The notes below the pieces were generated by a model that saw only the letters and a list, made by a program, of their open reading frames with translations, did not search any database and was not told the origin of the DNA. Positions 26,702 through 60,638 of a DNA stretch of 64,000 nucleotides are shown piece by piece. Source of the stretch: Tubulanus polymorphus. Taxonomy: Eukaryota > Nemertea > Palaeonemertea > Tubulaniformes > Tubulanidae. The position numbers and the translations under genes are program-made. Location: positions 14,758,155 through 14,822,154 of the forward strand of contig NC_134033.1 of assembly GCF_964204645.1 (NCBI RefSeq), read 5' to 3'. How positions within the stretch are numbered: position 1 is the stretch's first letter; every line of letters starts with the position of its first letter.

Positions 26702-27859
26702 ATGAAGTTATTAGTGATTGGATTACTTCTGTGCTCATTAGCCAGTGGTCAGTATTATTGCAACGTGTATCGGACAAAATTATGTGGACATCAGATAATA
26801 TAGTTTTTATTTCTACAAATCTGGGTGGAGCGAGAAAAATCGTCTATTCATATAAATGACCAACCTTTGTTGCTTTTCGACGCTAGCGCTTTGTGAATAA
26901 TTGATAATGAATTACAACTATAATGTTGCCCTCTTTTGACAGTGCATGACGTAAGCGGGTATAGTCGTTCCGTTAGAACTGGATACAGCTATAGTAGTGT
27001 AAGCAGCGATAGTAGTGGTGGTGGCGGCGGCTATGGAGGAGGGTATGGCCAACCAAACCAGTCTAACTGGAAATCGCCGAACGGCGGAGGCAATAGCTAC
27101 AGTTACAGCTGGGATTCTAACAAAGGAGGCCGGGGCAATGGAGGTGGCTACGGCGGTGGTTATGGTGGTGCTGGTGGTGTAGGTGGAGTAAGAGGGGTAG
27201 GTTACGCAGGAGGAGCTGGTGGTGTAGGTGGAGTAAGAGGGGTAGATTATGCTGGAGGAGTTGGTGGTGTAAGTGGAGTAAGAGGGGTAGGTTACGCAGG
27301 AGGAGCTGGTGGTGTAGGTGGAGTCAGAGGTGTAGATTATGCTGGAGGAGTTGGTGGTGTAAGTGGAGTAAGAGGGGTAGGTTACGCAGGAGGAGCTGGT
27401 GGTGTAGGTGGAGTAAGAGGTGTAGATTATGCTGGAGGAGTTGGTGGTATAGGTAGAGTAGAAAGCGTAGATTATGCAGGAGGAGTTGGTGGTGTAAGTG
27501 GAGTAAGAGGCCCCAATTATGTTGGAGGGGTCAATGGAGTCGGAGGAGTCCGTGGTGGAAGATATGGGTATGGAGATGTCGGTGGTGTAGGAGGAGGCAT
27601 GAATTACGTAGGAGGGATAAATGATGTTGGAGGAGTCGGTGGTGGGTATGGAGGCTATGGAGGAGGAGTCGGCGGTATTGGTCGAGTAGGCGGAGTAGAT
27701 GGTGGTTATGGAGTTGGTACAGGATACGGAGGAATGGGAGGTGGATATGATATCGGTGGGATTGGTGCTGTCGGAGGCGGTGGTGGCCTTGGGGGCCTCG
27801 GGGACCTTAGCATTCCTGATATCCCTGCTGGTCAAGGAGACTATGATGTCAGTTGGTAA
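26702..27859 (+). CDS. Secreted Gly/Val/Tyr-rich repeat protein 1
   Basis: Exon 1 (26,702-26,747) encodes the signal peptide MKLLVIGLLLCSLAS and ends in phase 1 at GTCAGT. Exon 2 (26,943-27,859) follows a pyrimidine-rich acceptor. The mature protein starts HDVSGYSRS and has a Ser/Gly/Tyr-rich section with the segment NWKSPNGGGNSYS. It then has about three copies of a 30-residue (90-bp) repeat built from two 15-residue halves (types GGVGGVRGVGYAGGA and GGVSGVRGVDYAGGV), and ends in an acidic, non-repetitive tail (IPDIPAGQGDYDVSW). The total is about 320 residues. Composition and cluster context suggest a structural extracellular protein (matrix, cuticle, silk or adhesive type). No enzymatic motif is visible. 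AATAAA signals at 27,860 and 27,868 sit right after the stop. Confidence 0.85.
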
Positions 27860-27867
27860 AATAAACC

Positions 27868-27873
27868 AATAAA
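27868..27873 (+). terminator. Poly(A) signal of gene 1
   Basis: AATAAA 9 bp after the stop codon, with another overlapping the stop region at 27,860. The 3' UTR would be very short. Confidence 0.55.
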
Positions 27874-27879
27874 TAAATG

Positions 27880-30040: not shown

Positions 30041-30776
30041 ATGGGAGTAGCAGTTGTTCTTATATGTCTGATGTTGTGTGGAGTCACCTTTGGTATATTG
30101 GAAAATCGGATTTAATTCTTACTCAGAATAAAAGAGTTATGCAGAGATTTAATGATGGCCATTCAATTTTTATTTTTTTCCAGCCAGTGGTGATAGATAT
30201 CGCGGAGGTGGCCATGGAGGTGGCTACGGTGGTGGCCATGGAGGTGGTCATGGTGGCGGCCATGGAGGCGGCCATGGAGGTGGCTACGGTGGTGGCCATG
30301 GAGGTGGTCAAGGTGGTGGCCATGGAGCTAGCTACGGTGGTGGCCACGATGGGAGGCACGGTGGATATGAAGGTGGTCACGGAATGGGACATTCACATCG
30401 GGGAGGTAGTAGCGGAGGTGGCCATTACAACCAAGGCCCGAAATCGTTTAGCTTCAGTTTTGGTGGTCCCACTAGTGGTGGGGGCGGGGGCGGTGGTGGT
30501 GGCAGCTGGAGTAGTGGAATCAGCACTGGGGGTGGCCCCGGCTATACCAGTCAGTCTTGGAGAAGTCCTGATGGTAAAAGCTTTGGAGGCTCGTTCGGAG
30601 AAAGCTACGGCGATGAAGGTGGCGGTGGTTCATTCGGCGGTAGTTCATTCAGCGGCGGTGGTGGAGGAGGCTACGGGGGAGGTCGGATGAGCAGCAAGGA
30701 AGGGAAGGCAATGATGAATACAATGATGAGTGGATTCGGCAACATGATGGGTGGAATGAGTCAATTGTTTGGATAG
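30041..30776 (+). CDS. Secreted Gly/His-rich protein 2
   Basis: Exon 1 (30,041-30,092) encodes MGVAVVLICLMLCGVTF and ends in phase 1 at GTATAT. Exon 2 (30,184-30,776) follows TTTTTTTCCAG. The mature N-terminal part is a run of GGGHGGGYGGGHGG-type repeats rich in His. Next comes a Gly/Ser/Phe section with QGPKSFSFSFGG and the segment SWRSPDGKSFGGSFG, and then a Met/Asn-rich tail ending MNTMMSGFGNMMGGMSQLFG. The total is about 214 residues. SWRSPDGKSFG matches NWKSPNGGGNSYS of gene 1, so the two are related. The His clusters could bind metal ions (inference). AATAAA lies at 30,820. Confidence 0.85.
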
Positions 30777-30819
30777 ATGAATTTCCAAATTTCTTTCAAA
30801 GTTCTGTAGTATCAGTTGG

Positions 30820-30825
30820 AATAAA
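30820..30825 (+). terminator. Poly(A) signal of gene 2
   Basis: AATAAA 44 bp downstream of the stop codon, in an AT-rich 3' UTR. Confidence 0.6.
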
Positions 30826-31370
30826 CATGGATTATGATTTCATGCCTGGGAAATGTTTTATTTAAAGTTTAATGGTTTGAACGACTCTTTTCCTTGCGTC
30901 AACATACATATAACATATCAATACACCTTCTTACTAATTCAATTCGTGGGAAATTATGAAATCATTTGAAATTAAGCTTGAAGAAAATTCACCGTAAAGG
31001 TAAATTGTATAGAATATATGTATCAGAATAATCATTTCAAATGCATTTCTTAAATGACTAAGCCTAAGTCGACAAAGTTGAGGTGTCGTAAACACGATTG
31101 CATACGTTCGACTGCGCGCAACACGTGTCCAAGGCCAATAAATCTACAACAGGTTGGGATAACGACGCACGTCTTTGACAAAATACCTGTCGCAACCTCG
31201 TGCGCTGCTAGTGAATATATCATCACCTCCAACAGCTCATGTTGAAGCCTTTCCAAAGATTGACGTAGCTATTTTGAAAAAAAGACTATACGCTTTATGA
31301 ACCTATCATTAACTGAAAAAATATGATACGAATAATCTTAGGTTCAAATTCAAGTCTCGATCTCTTTTCA

Positions 31371-31973
31371 ATGCGGCCTTTGATTGTTTTAATTGCAGTC
31401 TTAATTTTCGACGGTAAGTCAAATGGTTTTGCCGGGAAAACCTCTCCAGTGATGGAGTCTAGAATGTAACAAATTTAAATCAATATCATTTACATCCACC
31501 CAAAGTCTATTTCGATAAATATATCATAGAATTTATTTGGCCCTTATCGAGATCATATGACTCAGAAACGACCAACAATCACGTAGATGTGAAATTGATT
31601 CGTCTTATTGGTAATTTTACCTTTTCAATTTTCATAAATTTCAGTGGCGTCTGCTTCTAACTTCTACAAACCGTATACTGCGGATGCTGCAAACAATGGA
31701 TACATAGATTATGCATTTCGTGGTGCCTTTGATGACGAGTATGAGCAACCCATCCGTGGAACATATCAGTGGCCCAATACCGAAGCTAATTACCAATCAA
31801 GCCCGAGACAAGGTGTCGATGGTGAAACCACTGGAATTGGTAGATTTGGTCGTATTCCCGGCAACGTATTCCGGCCATATGAGTACATCTATGGAGACAG
31901 CAAGTTGCCGGCTCACTCCTACAGACCTTACTATGCATTTTATAAACAATATGGAGGAACGTTCTTTGGCTAA
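31371..31973 (+). CDS. Secreted Tyr-rich protein 3
   Basis: Exon 1 (31,371-31,413) encodes the hydrophobic leader MRPLIVLIAVLIFD and ends in phase 1 at GTAAGT. Exon 2 (31,645-31,973) follows ATAAATTTCAG and restores the frame as VASASNFYKPYTAD. The mature protein (about 105 residues) has no glycine repeats but is rich in Tyr, Pro, Asn and Phe (NVFRPYEYIYGDS, SYRPYYAFYKQYGG). It has no cysteine and no domain I recognise. The exon structure is the same as in neighbours 1, 2 and 4, which supports shared ancestry or co-option of the signal exon. A structural role, perhaps with tyrosine cross-linking, is inference. Confidence 0.8.
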
Positions 31974-32287
31974 AGACAAACTTTTCATTGATGAAATATC
32001 TTTTTCGAAATCAAATATACCCGTTCCATTACAATAATTGATACGTTTCTCTTTGATTACAATATGTCCATAAGCGCAGTTGCGTCCTTTTGTGAATTTT
32101 CAAATAGCAAGGCAAGTTGCCAATACGTTAAGTATTATGCTTAGATATGACCATGACAGTTGTGCGAGGGAAATATGCTTCGTTAAACAAAGCACGTGTG
32201 TTAAAATGGTGATGAAATTGGGACATTTACAAAACGTGTTTCTCTGTAAGTTGATCCACAGGTGGAGCAACGTAGCACTGAAAGACG

Positions 32288-32297
32288 TATATAAAAA
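32288..32297 (+). promoter_or_regulatory. TATA box of Met/Gly-rich gene 4
   Basis: TATATAAAAA lies about 230 bp before the start codon at 32,519. An acceptor (TTCAATTATAG, ending at 32,498) shortly before the start codon implies a leader intron between the two, which explains the distance. Confidence 0.5.
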
Positions 32298-32518
32298 GAG
32301 ACTGCCAGTAAGTATTGCATTAATTCCACAGTCCTAACCGCGGAATATCCGTTGATAGCAAATCGAGTTAATTAAGGTAGGTCAAATCATCTTCAAGATT
32401 ATTCGCTCCTGGATAGGGTTTAAAACTGTTCGCTTTGTAATATTAGCGTTTTTGTGATAATAATCATTGAAATAATTCTTTTATTGTTTCAATTATAGGC
32501 ACCTTCACTGAAACAACC

Positions 32519-33393
32519 ATGATGAGATATTTGATATTGCTTATTTTGGTGGCCAGAACAGTCGCCATTTATGGTACGTATTCACTCGGAGGTCCTATTC
32601 ATGTATTAGATGTTTATAGGGAATTGTCTTTTACTTATTCAAATATTCATTATTTTACTTATATGAATAACTTATCAAAAATTTTTTTTTACACATTTTA
32701 GGTGGATATGGCACAGGTATGGGCTATGGTGGAGTTGGTGGAATGGGAGGCGGAATGGCTTCCACGCACAATATGGGATATGGCGGTGCTGGCATGGGTG
32801 CTGGTATGGTTTCCAGTCATGGTATGGGTGGAATGGGTGGTGCTGGCATGGCTTCGTCCCACGGTATAGGACATGGCGCTGGAATGGGCGGTGCTGGAAT
32901 GGCTCATAGCATGGGTGGAATGGGCGGCGCTGGAATGGCTCATGGCATGGGTGGAATGGGCGGCGCTGGAATGGCTCATGGCATGGGTGGAATGGGCGGT
33001 GCTGGAATGGCTCATACACACAATATGGGATACGGTGGTGCTGGCATGGGTAGTGGTATGACATCAACTCATGGCATGGGTGGAATGGGTGGTGCTGGAA
33101 TGGCTCATAGCATGGGTGGAATGGGCGGCGCTGGAATGGCTCATGGCATGGGTGGAATGGGCGGCGCTGGAATGGCTCATACAAACAATATGGGATACGG
33201 TGGTGCTGGCATGGGTAGTAGTATGGCATCAAGTCATGGCATGGGAGGAATGGGTGGCGGTGGAATGGCTCATACAAACAATATGGGATACGGTGGCATG
33301 GGTTCCGGAATGTCTTCGACTCATGGCATGGGCGGCTATGGTATGGGTGGTATGGGCTCTGGTATGGCACATGGTGTAGGCATGTATGGTTAA
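32519..33393 (+). CDS. Secreted Gly/Met/Ala/His-rich repeat protein 4
   Basis: Exon 1 (32,519-32,573) encodes the signal peptide MMRYLILLILVARTVAIY and ends in phase 1 at GTACGT. Exon 2 (32,702-33,393) opens GGYGTGMGYGGVGG. The protein (about 249 residues) is dominated by a 12-residue (36-bp) unit GMGGMGGAGMAH, interrupted by longer modules of the type THNMGYGGAGMGSGM. It ends GMAHGVGMYG. There are many Met and His residues and no Cys. AATAAA lies at 33,539. The repeat family is related to gene 5 in composition (Gly, Met, Ala, His) but has a different unit. Confidence 0.85.
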
Positions 33394-33538
33394 ATGAACA
33401 GTTAAAACCAATGCTGCTAACGGAATGAAACTATGTTGAAGAAAGCATACTAAAATCACATAAATGGATAGTCGGAATTTTCATTGTGTATTTGAATAAC
33501 GGGTATAAATATCCTTGTCAAAATCGTGGTTATTTGAA

Positions 33539-33544
33539 AATAAA
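33539..33544 (+). terminator. Poly(A) signal of gene 4
   Basis: AATAAA 146 bp downstream of the stop codon. Confidence 0.55.
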
Positions 33545-33743
33545 GCAGTAACTTGAAAAATACTCTGATGAATTCTTATTTTTCATTTTTTCATCGTAGT
33601 TTTCTGCATTGGTTCATTACTGTCGTCATTCATCCTTTAGGTTGTATCTATCAGCTATTGTTTACCTTTTCCTTATTCAGTAAGCTTTAAATGGCTTGTG
33701 CATTTATCCTATATATGTGTTCAAGGCATACGCATTATGCTTC

Positions 33744-33750
33744 TATAAAA
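33744..33750 (+). promoter_or_regulatory. TATA box upstream of repeat gene 5
   Basis: TATAAAA in the context CTTCTATAAAAGCAAG between genes 4 and 5. It suggests that gene 5 has its own promoter with transcription starting near 33,775, although no signal-peptide exon is seen between here and 34,253. Confidence 0.45.
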
Positions 33751-34252
33751 GCAAGAGCCACAAATGGTCCATTCTTTTCCGCTCAATTCTTACGTAAAAG
33801 CTAGTACTAGACCATATGAGTTTATTCTAAAAAAAACAAACACGTTTCCTTAAAATAACTAACACCTATGCCTCAGTACCAAATGGCTGAAAGGAGAAAT
33901 GCTTGGTAGAACTTTTCCAATGCCAATTGATACTACTTTGTTAGAAGCATGATGTGATGACTATCCAACAGTACAATGCGCTTAAGAGTTACAAAACAAT
34001 TTTTGAAGCAATGATACGAAGATTTTTCAAAAAATAACACTCATGAAGCTCGTGACACACTGACGAATTCGGTAACTGGTGTCACAAATTCGGCGAATAT
34101 AATAGCTTGATTCGTGTGAATCACTTTTGTCGACTACAAATGCATATTAAAGAATACAATGTACGGAGAAGATCGATTCATCGAATGAATGTCACCCTAA
34201 AAAGTTCGCCTAGTGTGTCGCCAGCTAAATATATTTCTGATATTATGTATAG

Positions 34253-36141
34253 GACATGGTGGCAACATTGGGGTTACTGGCATGTATGGAGGACACCAAG
34301 CCGCGGCAATGGGTGCTGGCGCAGCTAATGCAGGTCACGGCGGTGGCTTCGGAGGCCACATGGGAACTACAGGAATGTATGGAGGACATCAAGCCGCTGC
34401 GATGGGTGCTGGTGCTGCTAATGCAGGTCACGGCGGTGGCTTCGGAGGCCACATGGGAACTACAGGAATGTATGGAGGACATCAAGCCGCTGCGATGGGT
34501 GCTGGTGCTGCTAATGCAGGTCACGGAGGTGGATTTGGTGGCCAAATGGGAGTCACCGGCATGTCAGGAGGACACCAGGCCGCTGCAATGGGTGCTGCAG
34601 CAGCAAATGCAGGTCACGGAGGTGGATTCGGAGGCCAAATGGGAATCACTGGCATGTCAGGAGGACACCAGGCCGCTGCAATGGGAGCTGCAGCAGCAAA
34701 TGCAGGTTACGGAGGTGGATTTGGAGGCCAAATGGGAATCACTGGCATGTCTGGAGGACATCAGGCTGCTGCAATGGGAGCAGCAGCAGCAAATGCAGGT
34801 CACGGAGGTGGATTTGGAGGCCAAATGGGAATCACCGGCATGTCTGGAGGACACCAGGCCGCTGCAATGGGTGCTGGTGCTGCTAATGCAGGTAACGGAG
34901 GTGGATTTGGAGGACATATGGGAACTACAGGAATGTCAGGAGGACACCAAGCCGCTGCAATGGGTGCTGGTGTTGCTAATGCAGGTAACGGAGGTGGATT
35001 TGGAGGACATATGGGAACTACAGGAATGTATGGAGGACATCAAGCCGCTGCGATGGGTGCTGGTGCTGCTAATGCAGGTCATGGAGGCGGATTCGGAGGT
35101 CACATGGGAACAACAGGAATGTCAGGAGGACATCAAGCCGCTGCAATGGGAGCTGGTGCTGCTAACGCAGGTCATGGAGGCGGATTCGGGGGACATATGG
35201 GAACTACAGGAATGTATGGAGGACATCAAGCCGCTGCAATGGGAGCTGGTGCTGCTAATGCAGGTAACGGAGGTGGATTCGGAGGACATATGGGAACTAC
35301 AGGAATGTCAGGAGGACATCAAGCCGCTGCAATGGGTGCTGGTGTTGCTAATGCAGGTAATGGAGGTGGATTCGGAGGTCACATGGGAACAACAGGAATG
35401 TATGGAGGACATCAAGCCGCTGCAATGGGTGCTGGTGCTGCTAATGCAGGTCATGGAGGCGGATTCGGAGGTCACATGGGAACAACAGGAATGTCAGGAG
35501 GACATCAAGCCGCTGCAATGGGTGCTGGTGCTGCTAATGCAGGTCATGGAGGTGGATTCGGAGGCCATATGGGAACTACAGGAATGTATGGAGGACATCA
35601 AGCCGCTGCAATGGGTGCTGGTGCTGCTAACGCAGGTCATGGAGGCGGATTCGGAGGTCACATGGGAACAACAGGAATGTCAGGAGGACATCAAGCCGCT
35701 GCAATGGGTGCTGGTGCTGCTAATGCAGGTCATGGAGGTGGATTCGGAGGCCATATGGGGACTACAGGAATGTATGGAGGACATCAAGCCGCTGCAATGG
35801 GAGCCGGTGCTGCTAACGCAGGTCATGGAGGCGGATTCGGAGGTCACATGGGAACAACAGGAATGTATGGAGGACACCAAGCCGCTACGATGGGTGCTGG
35901 TGCTGCTAATGCAGGTCATGGAGGTGGATACGGAGGCCATATGGGAACTACAGGAATGTATGGAGGACATCAAGCCGCTGCGATGGGTGCTGGTGCTGCT
36001 AATGCAGGTCATGGAGGTGGTTATGGAGGCCACATTGGAACTACAGGAATGTATGGAGGACACCAAGCCGCTGCAATGGGCGCTGGAGCCGCTGGTACTG
36101 GTGTTGTTGGTACAGGCGGTGCTGGTATGTACGGTCGCTAA
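34253..36141 (+). CDS. 20-copy 31-residue repeat protein 5 (Gly/Ala/Met/His-rich), first exon not found
   Basis: A large exon follows a probable acceptor (TTATGTATAG) and enters in phase 1, like exon 2 of its neighbours. It encodes about 629 residues, almost all of it a 31-residue (93-bp) unit of the type GTTGMYGGHQAAAMGAGAAN followed by AGHGGGFGGHM. I count 20 copies. Copies alternate between a GMYGG and a GMSGG version from about unit 8 to 17. The tail is non-repetitive (AAGTGVVGTGGAGMYGR) and ends at TAA. No ATG-signal exon with a phase-1 donor is visible between 33,400 and 34,250. A GTG-initiated in-frame extension (from 34,213) reads through the intron and is unlikely. The gene may use a distant first exon, share that of gene 4, or be a decapitated copy. 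Confidence 0.75.
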
Positions 36142-41310: not shown

Positions 41311-44300
41311 TCAGTCCGATTGTTGCACGTCGAAATCCGATTCGGGCACGGCCGGCGTTTTAGCCACTTCGAAAAACACCCTGAAACGAGAAACAAACCG
41401 ACGATAAATAATAACCGGCCGACGTTGAAAATTCATGTAAAGGTTTTCAACATCTAACAGGCTTTCGGTGACCATTGTTGAAACATTAATGTAGTAGTAG
41501 TAGTGCGTTGAAGATGGCATCAACTAATGACTAATTTAGGACGCAATCAAAACGTGGTAATACACTTCAAGCAGGGTTCATAGTCTCCATGACCCATCCT
41601 CCCTCTGCAGGGACTCGAACCTGATGGCATCGCTACACTCAGCCACGGCACGAACCCCTGCATCAGTAGACCAGGTGCGCAGGTACATGCGGGGGAGGAT
41701 GCCATGACCAGTCTCATTCCACGACTTTCAAGCACCTTTTTGACCCCAATTCAATGACCCGATTCGTCGATCAAATAGACAATAATAGTTCTTTATTAAC
41801 TGACTTCGACTATTAAATGGGTTAACGGTAAAAATCCCCCTACTTGGTGGAAGTGACTTCTACCACGGAACCTTGTTATAACAACCTCAGATACACGTAC
41901 ATGTATACGAATCTAAAAATTTGTCCAAAACCGGAAAATTTCAATCATTTCATACCAGATATAACGAACTATCAGTTATGACTAACATATCTCTCGGATT
42001 GGCCATAACCGGGTGGCCACTTCCTAGCCTTTTACAAATCCCCTGAGTTGAAAATGGGCGTATCAAAGATTTCACCCGGTCCTGGCAGTGCGGTTGTCTC
42101 CAGAGAGATCTCACTCTACCACCCTAGTGTAGCCATCAGATGCTAAGGTTCCCGGTGAAATTTTAAAGTTATGCGTGCGCATTTTATCTCACTTACTTAT
42201 GAGAGTATTTCGTCTTGATTGTTTGCACGTTTTTGAACGGCGGGACGGCTAGCATTCGATTGAGTTTTTTCGCGAGTGGCATCAGTTGCCGTTCCGTGAA
42301 ACCGGTGTAAAACACGAGCGTCTGTGACTGAAAATAGAACGACGACGGAACATCCGTTTTAGAAAATTGCTCGTCGAAGATTCGAGTCGAAACATTAACA
42401 CTGGCAGTTTTACTTCAATTGTGGTTTACCAAATATATTCGTCAACAGAATTAGTGATGTATCTCAGAAAAACTGAAATACGCGTGCTTTCATTTTTTTA
42501 CAAGCATTATGTAGACTTTTAAGTTCCTGACTGGTAGATCTTCGTTTCTGTTCATAACCTTCCTTAGTAACATCTATATTTCTTAACTACTGGGCAGAGT
42601 TTTATAGACTGGTATCATCTTTAACCCGGGGCTGACTCAATTGAAAATCAATTGAGTTAGCCCCCGGGTTAGACATAATACCAGTCTAAAAAGCTCCAGG
42701 GGGCCAGTTCCATAATGAGGGCTTAGACTTAAGACCAGTCTAAGACCAACTTAGTTCTATAACCGATCAAACAACTTAAGTTCAGGCTTAAGATTTAAGA
42801 CCACTTTTGGTCTTAAGTCTTCACTATGGAACCGGCCCCTGATTATTAGGTTTCTTTCTCTGATGATGAAGTTTGTCAACGTTTTTTCATTCATCCCTGT
42901 TCCGAGGAAAACTATGACTCTACTCAGGATGATTTGAAATTAACATACACCGGTAAATCCGATCTATAGAACTGATTGTCCTAATTCGTAAAACATCATT
43001 TTACGCTTGCATTAGTCACATCGGTGACATATCATAATAAATTGAAAACAATCCGAGTGCAGGTTCTACTCACCCAGGCTCCTGATTTCTTCATTTTGAA
43101 AGCGAGCAGCAAACAAGCGGCCGCCAGTTCCGAGTCGGTGTAAATCAGGTAGTTATAATCCATCTGAGAATATTCGAGAATGTACCGAGCCATCGTTAAC
43201 AGTTCCATCGACGATTTACAACACTGGAAAAAATTGTTTTTTAAAGATTTGATGCAACTAGCTAGAGAAGCAAACTTTGGAATAATTGGAACTTTAGTAC
43301 TTCGATGCACTTGCTATTACTGTTTGTATTGAAGGTTTTGAGATTTTTCAGAAAAGGAAAATATTTCATAAGCCAGGGTTCTTACAGGTTTCCCAATTAC
43401 ATTTTCAATAGTTTTTCCATACTCAGATTATAAACTTCCTATGCCCCTAAGTTATACATTGCCAAACTAGAACAGGCAATTGTCAATCAAAGCAAATAAG
43501 TACCAATTATCAGTACCATCGACGAAGGTGTTTCCCATGGAAACGTCCTGGGGATATGAGAAAAACATCTCAAATTCCTTGTCTCTTCCCTGATCTGTGA
43601 AAACCCTGGTGTCGGACAAGTTAAACGTACCTTCGAGAAACGCCGCAAGAATCTGTACGACGAAGGAAGCCCGATGTCGAAACACATCGTGCGTAAAATG
43701 TGCTGTTCCATGCGTATGATCTGTTCACGGTTGTACGCGTCGTCGCATATATACAGAAAATCATCGAGCAACGGCGGACACCTTTCCTGAAATCGGTAGC
43801 GAAAAAACAATCATATTTCATCGACCACAAATCATTGAGAGAAGTAACGCACTCCCCGAGATGACCCCCCCGAAACATTTAGAAATCAACGGCACAATAG
43901 TCCTCTTATCAACTTCAATAACCATCATTTCTTAAAAAACAATATTCCAAGTATATATCTGAAGCCTGCATACCTCAAGACATTTTTAATTGAAAATGAA
44001 CTACAAACACCAGACATTAGACATTTTATCAGCACACTTTCTAAAACTGATCATCCACACTGTGTTCAGAACTTTACTGGAGATATTTTTAATTGAAAAT
44101 GAACGACAAACACCAGACATTAGACATTTATTTTTATCAGCACACTTTCAAAAACTGATCTCTTCACTTCACATGTGTCCAGGACTTCAGTCAAGAAACT
44201 TTCAATAGAAAATTAACTACTAACACATTAGACATTTTATCAGCTCACTTCCGAAAACTGATCGTTCAAATTTTGCATGCGTTCACGACTTCAATCGCCT

Positions 44301-47300
44301 GAGACAATCTTTATCGATAATGAACTACTCACACCAGACATTGATTCAGAAATCAGCAAAACAGATCAATCTTAAATTATACTAGCGCCCAAATTACTGA
44401 CGCGCCATTGCTACACTCAGATAAGGGGTGATATCGAGGAACTTACGTCGAATTTACACGAGATAAACAAAGCGGCCGTCGCGACCAGTTGCAGTTTCTC
44501 ACGTCTGACGACGACCTTCGATAAATACAGATCGAACAGACGGATCGCCAGATACAACGTCTCGTGGTTCAACTCGAAGTTCTCTTGTATTTCGACGAGC
44601 CAATCGACGACGATCGCGCGCATCTGAATCGTGATCTCGGTTTGTCGTTCTAAATACGGCGACACCATGAACTTCATCTGAAAATGTAGTTTGAGGAAAA
44701 ATTCTAAACTTGATGAATCACTAAACAAGTTTTCCCTAAGTGAATCTGCAGCAGGTTAATGGAGAAATTCCCAGAATCTGCAGCAGGGGAATGGAGAAAT
44801 TCCCAGAGTGAATCTGCTGCAGGGGAATAGAGAAATTCCTAGAATCTGCAGCAGGGGAATGGAGGAATTCCCTGAGTGAATCTGCTGCAGGTGAATGGAG
44901 AAATTCCCACAGTGAATCAACTGCAGGTGAATGGAGAAATTCCCCAAGTGAATCTACTGCTGGGGAATGGAGAAATTCCCCGAGTGAATCTGCTGCAGGT
45001 GAATGGAGAAATTCCCCGTGTGAATCAACTGCAGGTGAATGGAGAAATTCCCCAAGTGAATCTACTGCTGGGGAATGGAGAAATTCCCCGAGTGAATCCG
45101 CTGCAGGCGAATGGAGAAATTCCCCAAGTGAATCTGCAGCAGGGGAATGGAGAAATTCCCCGAGTGAATCTGCCGCAGGCGAATGGAGGAATTCCCCAAG
45201 TGAATCTGCAGCAGGGGAATGGAGAAATTCCCCGAGTGAATCTGCCGCAGGCGAATGGAGGGATTCCCCGAGTGAATCTGCAGCAGGGGAATGGAGAAAT
45301 TCCCCGAGTGAATCTGCCGCAGGCGAATGGAGGAATTCCCCAAGTGAATCTGCAGCAGGGGAATGGAGAAATTCCCCAAGTGAATCTGCTGCAGGGGAAT
45401 GGAGAAATTCCCAGAGTGGATCTGCTACAGGTGAATGGAGAGATTCCCAGAGTGAATCTGCTGCAGGTGAATGGAGAGATTCCATGAGTGAATCTGCTGC
45501 AGGTGAATGGAGGAATTTCCTGAGTAAATCTGCTGCAGGGGAATGGAGTGAATCCTGATTTTCTGTGATCTGTACGAACCCTGTATCCATCATCCACTCA
45601 CCTCTCTTTCTTTGTAATATTCAAATATATCGTAAGCGTACTCTCCTACATGGAATAAATCCGACATATTCTCTTTGTCCACGTCGACAATTCCCTAAAA
45701 AAGAAGCAAAATACTGCAGATAACTTAACGCCCGGAGGACCTGACACACTTCAGCGCAACCTCTGATCAGTAACACTCCATAATTTTCAATAATTAGAAG
45801 CCTACCATTTTGTTTTTGTATTGTTCTAGGCTGGATTTTGTATCGTCGCTGTTCTCATTAGTTTTCACATCCTTTTCATTTTCTGACCTAAAAGGCGAAA
45901 ATCAAATCAACATCATTGAAAAGTTAAAACGACTATTTTTAGCCCGATTTCGCACACTTGTGTATACTTTAACTAAACTAAACTAAATATGAATAAGTAA
46001 GCCCCAGGTTAAAGGTTAAATACCAGTCTATACAACTGGCGCCAGTGTTGCTCTTAAAAAAGTTTTTAGGCTTTTATGATTTTTTCAACTTAAACACAGG
46101 GACTAACTGAATTGAATTCGAATAAGTTAGCCCCGGGTTAAAGTTAAAAGTAAAGCACCAGGCTTGGTTTCATAGATGTGGAAGAAAAATAGTCCCTGGG
46201 AACATTTTAAAATTTGTCTGTTATAACCATGGTTTCTCATTGTAACTATGGTGGTTGTCACCCAGATTGAGGATTTACCCCTAGGGATAACTTTGATACT
46301 CGGTCTATGAATCCAGGATCCAGTTCCACAGTAGTGAGTTTTGAGTTGAAGTTAGTTCATTTTCAATTAGTTAACTAGTCAGCCCCGGGTTAAAACACCA
46401 GTCTATAGAAATGGGCCCAGGGTTGTTGGATGATTTCCAACAAGTCAAGGGCTCGAAGAATTCACTCACTCGATATTTTTAACGGGTGAATTTTCACAGC
46501 TATTCGGCGCTTGTATGACGTGCGCGAGCGTATCGGTGAACTGTTCACACGTGTAATAACTATCCTCCTGAGACGACTTCGACTCCTGCGAACTCTGACT
46601 AGACGACTCTTGAGACGACTGCGACGAACTCCTCTGCGACAAACTGATCTCGTTATTTTCATCTTTGTTTTCGACTTGATTTCGCGACGCGGATTTCGTC
46701 GTTTTTTTCGTCGCCGTCTTCCGCGATGCTTTCAGCGTCGTTTTTTTAGCGGGCGCCGTCGCGTTGTTGCGCGATAGTTTATTCTCCCTCTAGAAGTAGA
46801 CGAAAATCGACAGAAAAATGAATTCGAGTTTATGAGTTTAGAGTCACCGTTCAAATACAGGGTCGGTGGCCACTTTTATTCTAATTGCTTTTTTCACTAA
46901 GAATTCAATCAATTAACACGTAGTCAAATACTTAAGACATAAATGGAAACTGTTGGATTATACACACAAAATTAGCAATCTCAAATTTCTCCGAGTGATT
47001 TCCAGGTAAGTGGCCACCCAGAAATACGTTCTTAAAACGCTGCTTGTAGTAGTCGAACCGCACTTAAGCACTTTTTTCTGAATCCAGAATTCGAAGACAA
47101 TTTCCAGGAATACAACAGACTTTTATTTTACTTGCTTGGTAGTAGGCCCAGTGGAATTTGCACATTAGAGAAATTAGACAGCAATTATACCAGTCAGTAG
47201 AAATTTCCTTTGATATTGAGTTAAAAAAGTACTTTTCAGCAATATCGAGATTTCACCGCAATAGTAACACTAATCTGTAAGCCTGTTTTTCCGAAAGTTA

Positions 47301-47704: not shown

Positions 47705-48839
47705 TCTACAGCGATAAAACAAATCTAGGCTATATTAAAGCTGCTGAATTAAATTGCTTGAATTGAAATTTTTCACGATCCGCGGCGGGAGAGAAAGAGT
47801 AAAAAACTGTACAGCAGGTCTTTTTAAAGCCGGCAAAATTGGATTCAGATTTTTTAGAAAGCTGAGTTCCTCACCTGGTGATACTGGTTATCGTTTATCG
47901 AAATTTGTGATGTTAAAATTCGCTTTAAAAACCGTTTTAAACCCTTTAATATCCTAAAAATATTTCCTCGCTTTGTTTCTTTTAGCGATTCACAATTTCC
48001 GCCTTTCAAAGCTTTCTAAAAGTTGAGCTCATTGGCTGTACGGTTGGAACATTGGCCAATCACGGGCGATTTAACAAAATTCCATTGCGGACCAAATTCA
48101 AATTCATATTTCTTTATTGAAACCAATTTAGCCATCAATTCAATTCAAACCATTATTGATCCTACTAGTTTGTAACAAGGCCTGCTAGGGCTGCATCGGA
48201 ATGTGAACGGTCAAGTTATCAAAAAACAACGGTCAGTTTAAACTAGAAAGGAAAAAAGAATAGAAATGGGAGCAGCAGAAAGATTTCAGTCGTAGAGGAA
48301 AGGTGGCAGCACCATACAAATCAATGTTCGAAAACGAAACCTTCTCGAAAATATTATAACGTGTAATGATTAGAATTAAAGAAAAGCACAAAAACAAGCA
48401 TAATTTTTTAAAGATACAAAGTGAAATTCGAGGTACCATACTAAATTAATGTTTTTTTGTGGAATTCGGCTTTTACCTGTATAGCCTATACACACAGTGA
48501 GAGCGGCGGTTCATCCTCGTGCCTCTACGTATCTCATTGACTTGAAACTCAACGCTAGCTATGTTTGCCTTTTAGATTCGAAGTTAAAATGTTTACAGCA
48601 GAATAAACATTTTACATTCACCGAAGCAAAAAAGTATTTAATTTGATATTGTTGTCAAGCTCCGATAGCTCCGGTGATTGGAAGCGTGGATGAATGCGGT
48701 GCAGAAGGTAATCATGCATGTTTTAAACACCATGGGAGGGTTTCAGGTATAAGAATATACTTCGATCCGGAAGAAAGGGGTTCATTGTGATTTTTCTGCC
48801 GTCAAATTGATAGCTACATTTGTCTGGACTGGAGGAGAC
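47705..48839. other. Intergenic interval between cyclin B3 and GPCR 1
   Basis: It presumably contains the cyclin promoter (minus strand) and the GPCR promoter (plus strand), as the two genes diverge. No clear TATA box or further gene. Confidence 0.4.
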
Positions 48840-49814
48840 ATGACGAACGCATCTCATCATTGTCCAACAATCAGAACTAGTTATAAGTTCGTTCATTACA
48901 TGTTCGTCTACGGAATAGGAAGTGTTTGCGCGCTTGGTATAGTCGGCAACGTACTCAATTTGATCGTGTTCAGTCAAGACAAAAAAGCCTTACTATCGGT
49001 GAAAATACTGAAGGCGTTGGCTTGTTGCGATATGTCGTTTCTGACAGTTTGTTTCGTGTACTTTTTTGTGAGACACGTTCGGTACAGAATTGAATTCGGA
49101 GATATGGTTTACAGGTATGGCGACTACAACATCGGTGCGAAATTGGCATATTCCACTGTCGTGATGTATTACATCACGCAACAAACCAGGAACTGGATAA
49201 CTGCTTATATTTCTGTCGTTCGATTCTTGAATGTTAAATTCCCACTCTGGTCCAGACGAGTTTTGACGTGGAAGTTATCTAAAGTTAGCATTGGTTTCGT
49301 GTTTTTGCTTGCCGTCACTTGTCACGGCCCGCGTTATCTATTTTTCCACATCGAATATGAGCTACTGCGAGACTGCTCATTCTCTATATTGATACCTATT
49401 ATAAAAACCACGCCTGTTTTATTAACTCGTTATGATGTGACGATCTATTTCGGATTTCTGGTCGGATTTCCGATGCTTATCCTCTACGTTACGAATCTAG
49501 CCTTGTTGAGTTCTGTTAATTTTGCTCGTTCTAAGCGTTCGAAACTTCTCGCAAGTGGTCCGCCACGAAAAGGCAGCGAACGACAAGCCGATAAAATGGT
49601 GACGGCGATTTTACTGATTTTTACGATTTGTGAAACGCCAGCCTGCATCGACCGAGTTGCAAGCGTAGCGGGTTTTGAATTCAAATTTGCCGATTTCAAA
49701 CAATTTGCCAGAAAATCTGGGCTCTTTCTGGTAGTTCTCGATTCGGCGTTGAATTTCGTTGTCTATCTCTCCATAAATTCAAAATTCAGACAAAATCTAA
49801 AAGGACTAATTTAA
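48840..49814 (+). CDS. Class-A (rhodopsin-like) GPCR 1, FMRFamide-receptor-like
   Basis: Single-exon gene of 324 residues. I chose the ATG at 48,840 because the longer frame starts at TTG. The N-terminus has an N-glycosylation site (NAS). Seven hydrophobic segments are visible: TM1 with IVGNVLNLIVF, TM2 from KALACCDMSFLTV, TM3 QTRNWITAYISVVRFLNVKF, TM6 MVTAILLIFTICETP and TM7 DSALNFVVYLSINSKFRQNL. The TM3 arginine lacks the preceding acidic residue of the (D/E)R(Y/F) motif (it is VRF), and TM7 has NFxxY in place of NPxxY. The QTRNW and NFVVY features are shared with GPCR 2, so the two are paralogues. A peptide or chemosensory ligand is likely but unknown. Confidence 0.85.
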   Translation: MTNASHHCPTIRTSYKFVHYMFVYGIGSVCALGIVGNVLNLIVFSQDKKALLSVKILKALACCDMSFLTVCFVYFFVRHVRYRIEFGDMVYRYGDYNIGAKLAYSTVVMYYITQQTRNWITAYISVVRFLNVKFPLWSRRVLTWKLSKVSIGFVFLLAVTCHGPRYLFFHIEYELLRDCSFSILIPIIKTTPVLLTRYDVTIYFGFLVGFPMLILYVTNLALLSSVNFARSKRSKLLASGPPRKGSERQADKMVTAILLIFTICETPACIDRVASVAGFEFKFADFKQFARKSGLFLVVLDSALNFVVYLSINSKFRQNLKGLI

Positions 49815-50835: not shown

Positions 50836-53800
50836 ATGAAACGTATCGGCGGCTTTTCTTGCATGCTTGTGTTTCTTATGTGCTTAACATTGGCGGTAGG
50901 TTAAATATTCTATGAATCTATGCTTTCATCGGACAAATTTTTTGTTCATAAGACTCATTCGATCGAGTTGACCATACGACGATAGACCATTTTAATGAAG
51001 GGGAGACAAAATCATAGACAATCATTCTGAATAATTTCTAATACAGTTTTAATAGCCATCGCCAGGTGGTTTCATTTATTTGGCCGTTATGCGAGGTTCT
51101 ATATGAGAGGATGCTCAGGGATGAGAGATTGCAACTCACCATCGCATTGGAATTTTACCGTCCAACCAGAAGACTTGGGTCGCCCTCCGTGTGACGCTAA
51201 ATGTATATGTTATGAAACTTCGTTATTTTAACGAAAATATTTTAGATTTTTCTTTTGTTTTCTTCAATGGATGATATCGAAAATCGTCATTATTCTTCAA
51301 TGCGTATCTTTTCATTGCAATTAACAGGACGCCGAACACGCTCGTCGGAAAAGGGCAACGCCGGATGTTCAGGTCACCAGTCACAGACGAATCACTTGGA
51401 GTGTTAGCAATGGTAAATACTCCGGTATGCAAATCCTCACCGTCCTTTGCGGATCGAGAATGGGGGGGGGGGTCTCATAAAAATTAAGATGATCGTGTTG
51501 TATAGAATGTTAACGCCTTTTATAATATACTGATTCAAGTTATGGTATCTTCTATTTCTTAATACAGAACATTTCGCCGGCTCCATCGCACGAGCCTTAA
51601 GACAATTTCCGGCGTGCATTTCTTTCGAAAAGCACCCTAGACCTACAGCAAACCTTAACTACATCTTCGAAAAATCGTAAGTACTTTTTCTCACATGAAG
51701 ATGAAACGTATATCAGCAATGTCCACGGCTGCACATTTTGTCGGTGGCTAAACATGAAAATATACATATATTTCATTCGGATTTTTGATACAGAACAGCT
51801 ATGCTCGGTGAGATTAAAACGATATGAATAATAATGATTCTTTAACAAAACGTAGGATTTCTGTTTAGGCGTGGTGATTTCACTGTGTACACCAAAGGCG
51901 TCGGACTCAAAAAAATTAATTCTGATATTTACCAGCAGGTTGTCTTCATCAAAAGTAGGCATGATTTAAAATATGTAAGTTCAACATCCTTTTAAAATCT
52001 GTTCTAAGATGATTTTGATAATGGATCACGATGCACCGGCTTTTGAAGCTTTAAGGCAAGGGGCATATGTAAAAGTACATCACCGAATGGAGTAAAAATG
52101 CTTTTTTTAACTACAAATCTAATTTGCATCATCTACATTGAAGTAAAAAGTTGCTAGAAAGCATTATATACAGGTATAATGTATTAAAGCATGGACGTAT
52201 AAACTTTCTAGTTTATACGTCCATGATTAAAGTATACAGACCTATGTAAGTTTGTGTATATTTTCATGTTTCATCTGTGCCCTAGTTACTTGAGAACAAT
52301 ATAAAATTGGTGACGCAACAAACTCTACGAGCCCTCGGATTCTATTACGAACACCAGCGACCGGACTCGAACAGATACGTGAAATATAACTTCTCAATGA
52401 GAAAACCACCATATTATGATATGGACACACGCGTGGCTTATGATGTGTCTTCAATTATGCATATTGATGAGATGGTAGGTGCAACTATGGACGTATAAAC
52501 TAGACTAGTTTATACGTCCATGGTGCAACGTGGTTGTGTCACGTGAAGTCGACCAGGCCGATCAAAAGGCAGTAATGCATTCATGTTCTTCAGAGATACA
52601 GCAATGCGCACCTGCGCATGGGAATTAAATATAATTATGTTGGAGGCCTCTGAATCAGCTTCGTAGATTCACAGTTAAAAAGATTCTTGAACGAGTTCAG
52701 TGGGCGTTTCTCCAACTCAAATGTTTAGCTGTAGTTCGTTGGTCATATTTACAATAAACCTGACACTTAAACCTTTCTGTCCTATAATCCGAATTGTTTT
52801 CGTATGACTTGTGTCAGTGGTCAGTCACCAATCACTGTAATCTATCCTCGAATACCCGAAGAAAGATTTCCAGACGCGTTTCCTTCATCACTCACGTACC
52901 GATCGTATTTCAAAATTTCAGTCATACGTAAACGAAGAAGGTGTGGTGAAAAAGCAGAACCGACCAATTATGCAACTACGTCCAACACTGTTGTTCAATA
53001 ACAGGCGACGTCACTACGGTTACATAGGATTTCGGCAACCGGGCGACAGTCTTCTAAGCTTCCGCGACAACAGAACGGTGACCAATAAGCTGTGTCGAAG
53101 GATGGACAATTCGATCGCAGGTATTTATGGAATATTGGCTTAATTCGTATATTTTTCAAATATTCGGTTTACACGTTTCATTAGCTTGGTGAATCGTCCG
53201 CAGTTGTTCCCAGTCGAACCGGTGAGTTTTACTTTAGTCCTTTGATGATAAAGCAGCAATCAATATTAGTTACCTAGGGACTTGGGTTCGACCTTTGGTG
53301 GATTAACTATTCGAACAGCTTCATACATATTCACACCCGAACTACGGCTAGGCCTTACTATCATTCGTACTTTTTAATGATGATAACGTTTTTTCTTCGT
53401 AATATAATTCCTTTGTGATAACATTCAATAATTCAACTACTTATTAACCACTTCGTTGACATTTGTGACGTATATTCACAAAAAAAATAGTCAAAAATAA
53501 TTACCTTCTCTCGCTCATCTCACCATACATGACGTATGTTTACGTAAATGAAGATACATTTCAATTCCAGTGGTCCATTCCTCTTTCGTCCAAATTGCTA
53601 TATGTATTAGATTTAGATTTTGTGCTGAGCTGTAGAAAATGAAAATTTCATTCATGTATTTGTACGTTCATTTGAAGGAACGACACCAGTCACTGCGCAA
53701 TGCCCATCACCGATTGAACCGTGTGCAAACGGAGGCTATGTTGACAAAAGCGTAAACGGGAATTTATGTCGATGCGTCTGTCCTCCGAGATTCGAGGGAA

Positions 53801-56425
53801 TGCGATGCGAAGAGTATCATCCTGGTACGACTTTGCCGATGGAATGCATTATTTTCTATCACGAATCAGCGTCGAAGAAACTCTTTTGAGCAATGGGATA
53901 CCGGCAATGCTAATGTGATCAGTGACAATTCCACCAGGTGTCGCTACTGGCACTGGGTTACCGCGCATCGATTCCTTTTACATTTCGATAAAATTCGAAA
54001 AAGCCTTTCTGATTCTGTGAAATCAATATCATACTCTGAGTGATAAAGTGAATCTTATATCTATTCAATGAATGGTTTGATGATTTTCGGATTTGAAGCT
54101 TAAAAATCAAGTCATCGAAAATGAACTGATTTTCACAATAAATGACCCAGTGCTTTTGTTAGCGCATCTAGTGAGTGCGGGTATCCCATTGCTTTCCATG
54201 CGATCAGCTCATTTGTGTTTCTCTGCACTATTTTCAGGTGAATGCGGTGGAGTTATTTCAGTAACCAATGAGATTGTTGCACACACTTCACGTGGTTATC
54301 CCTATGGTTGGAAGAGATACGAACGGTGTTATCACATCCTTCGCGTAAGTCGAGAGAAAATGTAAAACACGATTAAAGACCTACTTGAGTAGCGTGTTGT
54401 CCTATTGCATCAATTTATTGTAAAGCATTTATTTGACTTCAGCTAAGGCCAAGGGTTGGATGGTAATTTTTCTTGTACTCGTTTTCTAGGCACCAGCTGG
54501 TAGGCGGGTGTTGTTCCGTGTCGTAGACTTACAGTGCACCCAAGCGGAGTTGTACCTGCTCATTTTCGGGACCGATGTCAGTCTTCGCAAGTAAGTCTAT
54601 AAGTATAGGATTCCGCTGGCATAAACAGACTTGGGGTTGTCATTAAGCTCGAAATTATGGAATACTCAAGTTATTCGGAAAAAGATAGATGTAAGATCTG
54701 TATCCAATTGAACAGTTTCCATCTATGTTTAACGTATTTGACTGTGATAATTGATTGGATTCTTAACAGATCTAGTCAGGTGAACAACTGCTCAAATACA
54801 AAATGCCATTTTGAAAGTGTCATCTGCAAATGCCGTAGGGATGGAGATAATTGATAAAGAACAATATAATGATTCGAAGGCTAATGTTTTTGGCAAAACG
54901 AAGTCACAAATAAAATCATCTAGACGGATGAGAAAGTCTTTAAGATCTGAGAAAGATCAGAACTCGCCATTGAAGTACGGACGAGGAACTACAATCATTT
55001 TGTTTCTAAACTTCAGTATTACTTGTGACGACAATTTGATCGAAGAATTACTGGGCGTTTGGTTCCTTTCTGACGGGTCTTACATGGAAGTGAACTACGC
55101 GACGAAAAACTCCAGCGGGCGCGGTTTTAAGTTGGAATACACCGAGGCCTGTCGAACTAACACATCACACAACAACAACAAGACGTCGATGTTTGAAACA
55201 ATTGATTCCGAAGAGGAATCCCCGTGGGGTGAGTGGTTATACATGTTTTCGAGCGGCACTGTATACATAACAGCAAAACAGCAAACACAGAAATTGACAA
55301 TGTATAGGCTAAACAAAAATGATACCTTGTTTCTCCGCAGCGGCCGGGTAATTTTTGTAAAATATGATAAAATTTATAAACAGTTCATTTCTATAGCGGC
55401 CGGGTCTGTTATGGTAAAATTGATCACGATTTAAAAAAAAGTAATGTATAGGGTAGATAGGCGGCCGGCCGGGTCAACATGTAAGCTCAGTAGAGCGGAG
55501 AAACAAGGTATCAATTTTTTTTAGTCATATTTGTAGTTTTTTCAGTTTCAAGGAAGTTGTCCTTCCTAAAGCCCGACGCACGCGATACATTGGCAAACAC
55601 GGAAGCAGGAGGCAGACATATGTATCTTACTGCGTCGGTGCATTTAGGAAAAACGAGACGAAACAATTCTTCAAACATGTTTGATCCTGTGTGTGTCTGT
55701 TTATCTCTTGTTACCATGTCGTGTGCGTTGGGCTTAAAAGAATGTTTTTGGTTAATCTGTTGAAGCTTTCTTGAGGCAGTAGATATCGTTTTTGAAATGG
55801 GAAATCTAAATCCTCAGTTCTGAGTACATCAAATAACGATCGAGCTAGACGTCTAGGTATATTTGTCTTTTCTGATTAAAATAATGATTTTTATTTCACA
55901 GTTTCGTGTAAGGATTTGAATAGTGAAACAGTCACAACGCCCGCTACTACCGATGCGCGTCCCAAATGTCGATTCTGCGATTCAAGGTCGGATAAATATT
56001 GTCTAGTAACGCAAACCAAGGATATGGATGAAATTCAATGTGAAGACCATGAAATGTGTGGTGTACGTATTATATATAGATATACGAAGTATTAATTTGT
56101 AACTTTGACGTCACGGAGTCCTTTGATGAAACATACGTGGTTTTATTTTTAGATCGAGGCAGTGGTTTCCCCTTGCGGAGACGTACGGCAGATGAAACGA
56201 GGCTGCTATTCGACGAACCTTTGCCAGCAATCTCACTGCAAAATGGACGCCGACGGTGCCCATATCTGCGTACAGTGCTGCCACCATTCGACCGATTGTA
56301 AAACGCTAGGCATAACCGATTTGAAATTTGATGTCGTAAACATCCACAGGAATTCCGCAAAGCTTCTGAATGCGTGTTACACGGCGAATGCATTATTGCT
56401 GATGGTTTATCTATCAGTAAACTGA
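50836..56425 (+). CDS. Astacin-EGF-CUB protein with destroyed zinc site and Cys-rich, probably GPI-anchored tail
   Basis: Twelve exons join in phase: 50,836-50,895; 51,328-51,412; 51,568-51,676; 51,869-51,974; 52,286-52,474; 52,922-53,120; 53,678-53,824; 54,238-54,344; 54,490-54,590; 55,017-55,228; 55,902-56,062; 56,153-56,425, giving about 582 residues. Order: signal peptide MKRIGGFSCMLVFLMCLTLA; a very short propeptide with furin-type RRKR; an astacin fold (IARALRQFPACISFEK, ALGFYYEHQRPD, YDVSSIMHIDEM); one EGF-like domain (CANGGYVDK, CRCVCPPRFEGMRC); a CUB domain over three exons; and a Ly6/uPAR-like cysteine-rich region ending in a hydrophobic tail (ANALLLMVYLSVN). The family motif HExxHxxGFxHE reads QQTLRALGFYYE, so all three His ligands and the catalytic Glu are gone. 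Astacins with EGF and CUB normally process extracellular proteins; this one should be an inactive binding protein. Exon 1 is the least certain, and a microexon near 53,203-53,220 is possible. Confidence 0.78.
52190..52225. mobile_element. 36-bp palindromic mini-element, copy 1
   Basis: ATGGACGTATAAACT and its exact reverse complement AGTTTATACGTCCAT are separated by only four bases, with an extra C/G pair outside. The palindrome is flanked on both sides by ATTAAAG, a 7-bp apparent target duplication. It lies in the intron just before the astacin exon at 52,286. Confidence 0.7.
52486..52522. mobile_element. 37-bp palindromic mini-element, copy 2
   Basis: ATGGACGTATAAACTAG, one central base, then the exact complement CTAGTTTATACGTCCAT. 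It is flanked on both sides by GTGCAAC, a 7-bp apparent target duplication different from that of copy 1. It starts 12 bp after the end of the astacin exon (52,474), inside the donor region. Confidence 0.7.
55307..55526. mobile_element. 220-bp TIR element (MITE), copy 1
   Basis: The ends carry an 18-bp perfect inverted core (GATACCTTGTTTCTCCGC at the left, its complement at the right). This extends imperfectly outward to about 33 bp with GGCTAAACAAAAAT on the left. The interior is AT-rich with GCGGCCGGGT repeated three times. It lies in an intron of the astacin-like gene (between 55,228 and 55,902). A second, nearly identical copy is at 58,531-58,751. Confidence 0.85.
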
Positions 56426-56954: not shown

Positions 56955-57161
56955 TCACATACATGGGGGATTCTGGTCACAACTTTTCGGGTCATTGCAA
57001 CATTCTTGAAATTGAACGGAACATTGTTTCTCGCAGGCGACACAAAACGGAGTTAAATTGGTGTTCGCGCATTCATCACCAGCCGACGGCGTCGGAGCGA
57101 AGATCGCTATGCTCAGCAATGTCGCAACTACAAGAAAACCACTCATGAATTTCGGCGTCAT
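56955..57161 (-). CDS. Small secreted cysteine-rich peptide
   Basis: A 68-residue open frame on the minus strand. Residues 1-27 (MTPKFMSGFLVVATLLSIAI onward to PSAG) form a signal peptide with a TPSAG-type cleavage region. The mature part of about 40 residues has eight cysteines in the order C-C-C-C-CC-C-C (the core CEKQCSVQFQECCNDPKSC is conserved in the paralogue at 61,957). An acceptor (TTTTTGTAG) lies immediately before the ATG, so a non-coding leader exon is expected upstream. Function is unknown; such peptides may be antimicrobial, hormonal or venom-like. No known family is assigned. Confidence 0.72.
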   Translation of the reverse strand: MTPKFMSGFLVVATLLSIAIFAPTPSAGDECANTNLTPFCVACEKQCSVQFQECCNDPKSCDQNPPCM

Positions 57162-59455: not shown

Positions 59456-59498
59456 CCCAGCAGTCACGTAATCTAGAAATCTAGACTATCGACATCAG

Positions 59499-60638
59499 AT
59501 GGATGATTACACAAATTCAGCAAACCGGCATAACAAAACCAACTTAAAGAATGCGTTCGCAGCAGCCTCCGACATCTTTCATAATATCACTTATAAAGAC
59601 GACGCATTGGTATCGTTGTGTCAAAGGATACAAGCCCGTCCTGCAACACGAAAAAACAAATACAGCGTTTTAATGTACTTGGTTTGGTATCTACCAGCGT
59701 CTCTATTGGGTATAATATTCAACGCATTCACGCTGTTGGTTCTAAAACAATTCAAATCCGATAGTTATTTTCTCATCAAAATTCTCGCTTTAAACGATCT
59801 GTTGTTTATGATCGCTACATTCGTTCTTTATCCGCTGAGAACTGTGTACGTGTACGCCGTATTGGGAGATATTCTGTTTCGTACAAATAATTGGAATTTA
59901 GGCTGGATTTTCATCTCGGTCGCCTTGCCGTTTTTCTACATGTTTCAGATGACACGTAACTGGTGCACTGTACTGCTAAGTCTCGAGCGGTTAATCGTCG
60001 TATTGTTTCCGATAAAATCTCGAATATTTCCCCTGAAGTCCATATCGCTATACGCGATGCTTTTCATATCGCTACTCAGCTTTTGCGGACATTTCGTTTT
60101 GTTTCTGCCCGAATATCCGCTTGGCTTTCTGAACTGCCCCGACTATTGGCCATATGTAACTATACGCAAGAAGTACCGATTCAAATATGGGATTATACAA
60201 TATAAATGGCGTTACGAGATTTCCGAACGTGATTTGTTTCTCTATCTTACCGTCATGTTTCCGATTTGCTTTTTAGTTTTCGTCAATTCCATTCTTATTT
60301 CGCTGACATTTTTCCGACACGTCTTTCGACATTCGGAGCTCGGCGTAGTAAACGACAAATCGGCGAGAAAAGAAATGAAAGTTTTGAGGATGGTTTTATC
60401 CGTAGTTCTGTTGTTCATCATCTGCGAAAGTATCGGTTTCGTCGATCGTCTGAAATACTTTGTCGCAATTCCTGCTCTTAGAAATTCAGGCATAAGGCTG
60501 ATAGCCTTAGGACTTTCTATCGTCGATTCTTCTGTAAACTTTTTCGTGTATTGCGTAACGAATGCAAGGTTCAGAAAGTCGGTTTTTGGTACATTCGCCT
60601 CGCCGCGTCAGGAACCTGAGCAAAAGAGGAAACCCTAA
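59499..60638 (+). CDS. Class-A GPCR 2, FMRFamide-receptor-like
   Basis: Single-exon gene of 379 residues. The N-terminal ectodomain of about 55 residues has several N-glycosylation sites (for example NKT and NIT). TM1 is LPASLLGIIFNAFTLLVL, TM2 has LALNDLLFMIATFVLYP, TM3 QMTRNWCTVLLSLERLIVVLF with an ERL triplet at the DRY position, TM6 VLRMVLSVVLLFIICES and TM7 DSSVNFFVYCVTNARFRKSV with NFxxY in place of NPxxY. The C-tail is short and basic (EPEQKRKP). It is closest in the window to GPCR 1 (TRNW and SxxNFxVY). Likely ligand class is peptide or chemosensory; the ligand is unknown. Confidence 0.88.
   Translation: MDDYTNSANRHNKTNLKNAFAAASDIFHNITYKDDALVSLCQRIQARPATRKNKYSVLMYLVWYLPASLLGIIFNAFTLLVLKQFKSDSYFLIKILALNDLLFMIATFVLYPLRTVYVYAVLGDILFRTNNWNLGWIFISVALPFFYMFQMTRNWCTVLLSLERLIVVLFPIKSRIFPLKSISLYAMLFISLLSFCGHFVLFLPEYPLGFLNCPDYWPYVTIRKKYRFKYGIIQYKWRYEISERDLFLYLTVMFPICFLVFVNSILISLTFFRHVFRHSELGVVNDKSARKEMKVLRMVLSVVLLFIICESIGFVDRLKYFVAIPALRNSGIRLIALGLSIVDSSVNFFVYCVTNARFRKSVFGTFASPRQEPEQKRKP

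Follow-up and report, generated by a model that had tools for sequence, protein, structure and literature searches.

A putative pseudo-astacin with a Ly6/uPAR-type C-terminal module in the genome of Tubulanus polymorphus

Pseudoproteases are well known among the ADAMs. In the excerpts consulted of a review on inactive metallopeptidases from 2024, the pseudo-ADAMs are tabulated, the motif of ADAM23 is given as QSLAQNLGIQWE, and astacin is mentioned once, in the list of metzincins, with no inactive astacin named in the table (PMC11266112). A search of the open-access literature yielded no inactive astacin by title or beginning of the abstract among the matches listed, and no paper in which astacin is combined with Ly6, GPI-anchor, CUB and EGF. 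Likewise, no inactive astacin is described in the sections consulted of papers dealing with astacins of the salmon louse and of scorpions, and the words 'inactive' and 'GPI' are absent from the main text of an astacin review (PMC9848320). According to excerpts of the same review, the classical astacins are characterized by the disulfide bonds C42-C198 and C64-C84 (PMC9848320). The Ly6/uPAR (LU) domains, as far as covered by extracts of a further publication, contain ten cysteines, are encoded by two exons with generally phase-1 flanking introns and are often GPI-anchored, and the Asn residue following the tenth cysteine is described as invariable (PMC6600238).

The gene that is compared here with these systems is located at positions 50836-56425 on the forward strand of the 64,000-nucleotide stretch of Tubulanus polymorphus DNA that was analysed as a whole and is referred to as the window. 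It consists of 13 exons encoding 588 amino acids, and the order of the encoded parts is signal peptide, furin-site remnant, astacin domain, EGF domain, CUB domain, linker, cysteine-rich module and hydrophobic end. All 12 introns follow the GT-AG rule, and the reading frame is free of internal stop codons. A preliminary description of this DNA had reported an intact frame over twelve phase-consistent exons; the frame was confirmed, and the present model counts 13 exons, as it includes the previously missed 18-nt linker exon 7 (53204-53221, phase 1-1), for which only the splice sites and the phase speak. Taking the evidence below together, we favor, with a probability of roughly 0.62, a maintained pseudo-astacin as the product of this gene, one that works by binding and is probably held at the cell surface. 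A tblastn search with the protein revealed no second copy of the gene within the window, where no other place scored better than E 2.9.

Two single-frame genes that resemble GPCR genes by eye (48753-49814 and 59472-60638) flank the pseudo-astacin gene, and a candidate small secreted cysteine-rich peptide, MTPKFMSGFLVVATLLSIAIFAPTPSAGDECANTN..., lies just downstream of it on the opposite strand (approximately 56955-57161). At a greater distance, cyclin-like open frames were noted by eye on the reverse strand (43032-45620), next to a 36-bp tandem repeat with 22.9 copies that can be read as a 12-residue repeat (44732-45548). Long repetitive open frames rich in glycine are clustered in the region 26924-36141; they are shell-, tube- or silk-like by look only and include 19.6 units of 93 bp at 34275-36093. 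Further features of the window are a gene resembling Patched-domain genes by eye, with several long open frames on the reverse strand (19460-24145), and a tandem repeat of 5.2 copies of a 136-bp unit with 97% matches (12499-13207).

The former active-site helix and the Met-turn of the protein are encoded by exon 5 (52286-52474), which comprises 189 nt and is bounded by phase-0 introns on both sides. The zinc motif HExxHxxGxxHE reads QQTLRALGFYYE at this position, and the motif stretch QQTLRALGFYY contains neither the HExxHxxGxxH pattern nor the catalytic Glu of an active M12A member. The affected codons specify Q131, Q132, R135 and Y141, followed by the retained E142. In the Met-turn, SIMHY is changed to SIMHI (M178, H179, I180), by which the Met is kept and the Tyr ligand is lost. 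In total, Q, R and Y stand in place of the three His ligands, Q in place of the catalytic Glu and I in place of the Met-turn Tyr. The earlier statement that every zinc-site residue is replaced is correct as regards the ligands and the general base; the family-specific Glu that follows the third His position is an exception, being present as E142. The other elements described along with it, namely the retained fold residues flanking the lost motif, the altered Met-turn tyrosine and the replacement of the GC region, were all recovered. In the latter case, exon 4 (51869-51974) encodes the stretch SRGDFTVY where the GC region is expected, and both cysteines of the C64-C84 type are missing. The cysteines of the C42-C198 type are present as Cys65 in the N-terminal astacin subdomain (exon 3, 51568-51676) and as Cys241 in the C-terminal subdomain (exon 6, 52922-53120). 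Of the two classical disulfide bonds, one has kept its pair of cysteines and the other has lost both.

Of the columns that are conserved to at least 80% in the fetched paralogs of the same genome, none of the five catalytic ones is retained, against eight of the nine others; the p value of 0.003 (Fisher test) serves as a guide only, because the His and Glu columns were fixed, and some of the Met-turn columns restricted, by the search patterns with which the paralogs had been gathered. The exception among the nine is the Arg of DRD. The protein would probably still adopt the astacin fold around a cleft that is predicted to be free of zinc. An alternative exon carrying an intact active site was also considered and discarded, since a scan of both strands of the whole window showed no alternative HExxHxxGxxH in the gene. 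The shorter word HExxH occurs six times in the window, counting both strands, in no case as a usable exon of the gene; the only forward-strand occurrence within the gene (51753, intron 3) is not continued by GxxH, and reading on from it leads to a stop codon.

The assignment to the astacin family by sequence appears modest to weak, albeit beyond chance. The Pfam Astacin profile matched the protein with an E value of 2.3e-4 and 21.4 bits, just under the cut-off of 22.5 bits, and crayfish astacin (1ast) was matched in the PDB with an E value of 0.0022. A profile built from six paralogs of the same genome scored 22.0 bits, a value that was reached by none of 1999 shuffles, the best of which scored 14.2 bits. 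In the PDB, residues 99-158 also matched a bacterial hemagglutinin component (E values of 0.011 and worse), which was dismissed as chance. When the pieces were searched separately, the profiles EGF_2 (E 0.0058) and CUB (E 0.0012) both remained under their curated cut-offs; the cysteine sets of the EGF domain (exon 8, 53678-53824) and the CUB domain (exons 9-11, 54238-54344, 54490-54590 and 55017-55228) are complete, with six and four cysteines, respectively.

The structure of the gene says more about its astacin descent than the sequence match. Three introns of the astacin domain agree in place and phase with those of active paralogs, the intron boundaries of which (L031, L038 and L044) were read by eye. 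Intron 3, which separates exons 3 and 4, has phase 2 and is located just ahead of the position of the GC-motif cysteine in the active paralogs L038 and L044, both of which contain an intron at the same position that is also in phase 2. Phase 0 applies both to the intron preceding the active-site helix and to the one following the Met-turn, and L031, L038 and L044 have phase-0 introns at the same two positions. Counted from the beginning of the exon, the first Gln of exon 5 comes about five residues later than the first His does in the paralogs. The best local matches of the astacin part to the fetched paralogs show 26-34% identity, indicating a strong divergence. With respect to the closest relatives, the phase-2 intron would point to the L038/L044 type and the EGF-CUB order to the L035/L050 type. 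Moreover, the EGF exon and the set of CUB exons both extend from phase 1 to phase 1, as exon shuffling would predict.

The genome of 268 Mb contains at least 161 Pfam astacin matches, counted exon by exon, a lower bound obtained by scoring 150 of 256 candidates. The best Pfam scorers were fetched as 50 loci that correspond to 43 distinct places, seven loci being second copies, and the His/Glu motif is intact in all 43 of these places; other pseudo-astacins may exist in the remainder, as the fetched places represent the best scorers. A loose motif scan detected the intact motif in 49 of the 50 loci, and direct reading of the remaining locus L048 showed it to be intact as well. The stricter pattern that was used to count the helix stretches (34 distinct ones among the 43 places) and to define the conserved columns demands an intact motif, which the loose scan did not. 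The Met-turn was detected in 30 of the 43 places, and its 19 distinct versions all end in Tyr. The ends of the other astacin-EGF genes, as judged by eye, consist of ShK-like repeats in L031-L033, L036-L038 and L044, of CUB and TSP1 in L035, and of CUB, EGF, TSP1 and ShK in L049 and L050. Six astacin places on contig C11 (L040-L043, L045 and L046) share identical active-site helix stretches and apparently represent a recent amplification.

At the N-terminus, exon 1 (50836-50895) provides the start codon and a signal-peptide-like hydrophobic stretch with a cleavage site assigned by eye; translation could also begin at an in-frame ATG at 50815, which would lengthen the protein by seven residues. 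Exon 2 (51328-51412) encodes a remnant of nine residues that ends in the furin-type sequence ARRKR, in line with the previously noted reduction of the propeptide to a few residues with a furin site, followed by the mature N-terminus and the first strand. No prodomain was seen in any of the three frames of the 432-nt intron 1, although the contrast to active astacins is weak, since a prosegment-type motif was detected upstream of only one of six active paralogs when the pattern was applied to them as a control. The distance from the furin site to the residues 'SN' past the first strand amounts to 19 residues by hand count and is equal in L031-L034, with L038 differing. According to excerpts of the astacin review (PMC9848320), the N-terminus newly formed in active astacins attaches to the family-specific Glu, and the maturation cut of the pseudo-astacin may therefore still serve its folding.

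The C-terminal module and the hydrophobic end, encoded by exons 12 and 13 (55902-56062 and 56153-56425), had been overlooked in the preliminary description. This set of two exons, which is entered in phase 1 and closes the gene with a linker, the module, the hydrophobic end and the stop codon, specifies ten cysteines in the order of LU domains, with spacings of 2, 7, 12, 5, 18, 5, 17, 0 and 5 residues, and five additional cysteines at positions 447, 506, 527, 537 and 573. The label 'LU-type' was chosen because the two exons have no match in Pfam or the PDB (E values up to 10), the tenth cysteine is followed by Lys instead of the Asn of LU domains, additional cysteines are present and the C-terminal end is moderately hydrophobic only. 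The same features would also suit a pseudo-astacin that is secreted into the matrix or a body fluid, with exons 12 and 13 encoding an unanchored cysteine-rich tail other than an LU domain or belonging to a neighboring gene. We regard this alternative as possible, if doubtful, because the cysteine order and the two-exon set fit an LU domain. A separate Ly6 gene was rejected as a candidate: one signal-like ATG is present in intron 11 (55677), but no suitable donor was found for it in the scan, and the junction of exons 11 and 12 is phase-consistent. Because the protein ends in this module and a hydrophobic stretch, a tether at the cell surface is likelier than the matrix role proposed for this protein. 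The binding or decoy function suggested along with the matrix role would fit.

A maintained and surface-tethered pseudo-astacin could operate as follows. The signal peptide would direct the protein to the secretory pathway, where furin would cut off the short remnant, an inhibitory prodomain being unnecessary, and the new N-terminus would pack on the retained family-specific Glu142. The presumably metal-free cleft and the CUB domain would then present a binding face, and the LU module and the tail would hold the protein on the cell surface, its end probably receiving a GPI anchor. At the surface, the protein might bind a ligand or compete with active astacins for substrates or partners.

Exon 5 is flanked by two copies of one near-perfect palindrome, located in intron 4 (52184-52231) and intron 5 (52484-52524). 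The 14-nt arm of the palindrome occurs four times exactly in the window, in each case within these two copies, and is absent in exact form from all 50 fetched loci; allowing two mismatches adds one match at 36545, with 0.52 expected. A scan of the window for arms of at least 16 nt showed only four such palindromes, one of which is an AT microsatellite. The stretch of the palindromes folds with a z-score of -8.1, which was equaled by none of 100 shuffles. The copies pair around exon 5 in the minimum-energy fold and form separate hairpins in the centroid structure, and both arrangements would lower the energy. Since exon 5 comprises 189 nt in phase 0-0, its skipping would preserve the frame. The palindromes could promote the skipping of exon 5 or the formation of circular RNA, or they could represent a tiny transposon. 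A more far-reaching scenario, which we consider unlikely as a whole, connects these elements: by exon shuffling, an astacin-EGF-CUB gene would have given up catalysis and the prodomain and acquired an LU module of the GPI type, giving rise to a tethered competitor of the many active astacins of the genome, and the palindromes would let splicing drop the whole former active site in frame, resulting in two forms of the receptor.

The divergence from the fetched paralogs over the astacin part would also suit a recently dead gene that was released from constraint too shortly ago for a stop codon to have arisen. However, about 6.6 stop codons are expected after 0.1 unconstrained substitutions per site, whereas none is observed in the 588 codons, and the 12 introns are good. 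The joint probability of finding no stop codon together with five changed catalytic codons is at most 6.7e-7, the best value over the divergences tried, in a simple decay model that considers point substitutions only. Neutral decay fits poorly with this value, and the model calculation argues that the reading frame was preserved while the active site was replaced, which would be consistent with maintenance by selection. A recently dead gene is therefore quite improbable. The earlier view of a former protease with an intact frame, a lost site and a missing prodomain is supported. A protein that is still a protease, either by means of an alternative exon, for which the phase 0-0 exon 5 and palindromes that might alter its splicing could be cited, or by means of an unusual metal site, is very improbable, as the gene contains no alternative HExxHxxGxxH and has retained none of the three His residues, nor the general base, nor the Tyr.

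If the preferred reading of a maintained pseudo-astacin is true, a second metzincin family has made the transition from protease to binding protein, thereby losing the prodomain and gaining a surface module. Among the described systems, the astacin family M12A (PF01400), and especially the paralogs L035, L038 and L050, shares with the pseudo-astacin the scaffold residues, the cysteines of the C42-C198 type and the Met of the Met-turn, and also the family-specific Glu, the furin site, the places and phases of introns and the EGF-CUB order. Unlike these paralogs, the pseudo-astacin lacks the zinc ligands, the general base, the Tyr, the bond of the C64-C84 type and the prodomain, and it ends in an LU-type module, whereas the paralogs end in ShK or TSP1, as judged by eye. 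The inactive ADAMs (ADAM11, 22 and 23), which are metzincin pseudoproteases, likewise carry other residues in place of the motif His and Glu and keep the Met-turn, and their binding role at the cell surface represents a putative likeness to the pseudo-astacin; they differ in belonging to another family and in their accessory domains. According to extracts of the respective publication, LU domains occur in unrelated surroundings in a few proteins only (PMC6600238). With the GPI-anchored LU (Ly6/uPAR) proteins, the pseudo-astacin has in common the order of ten cysteines, the two-exon set entered in phase 1 and the hydrophobic end, and it differs from them by the missing Asn after the last cysteine, the extra cysteines and the fusion to an enzyme-like protein.
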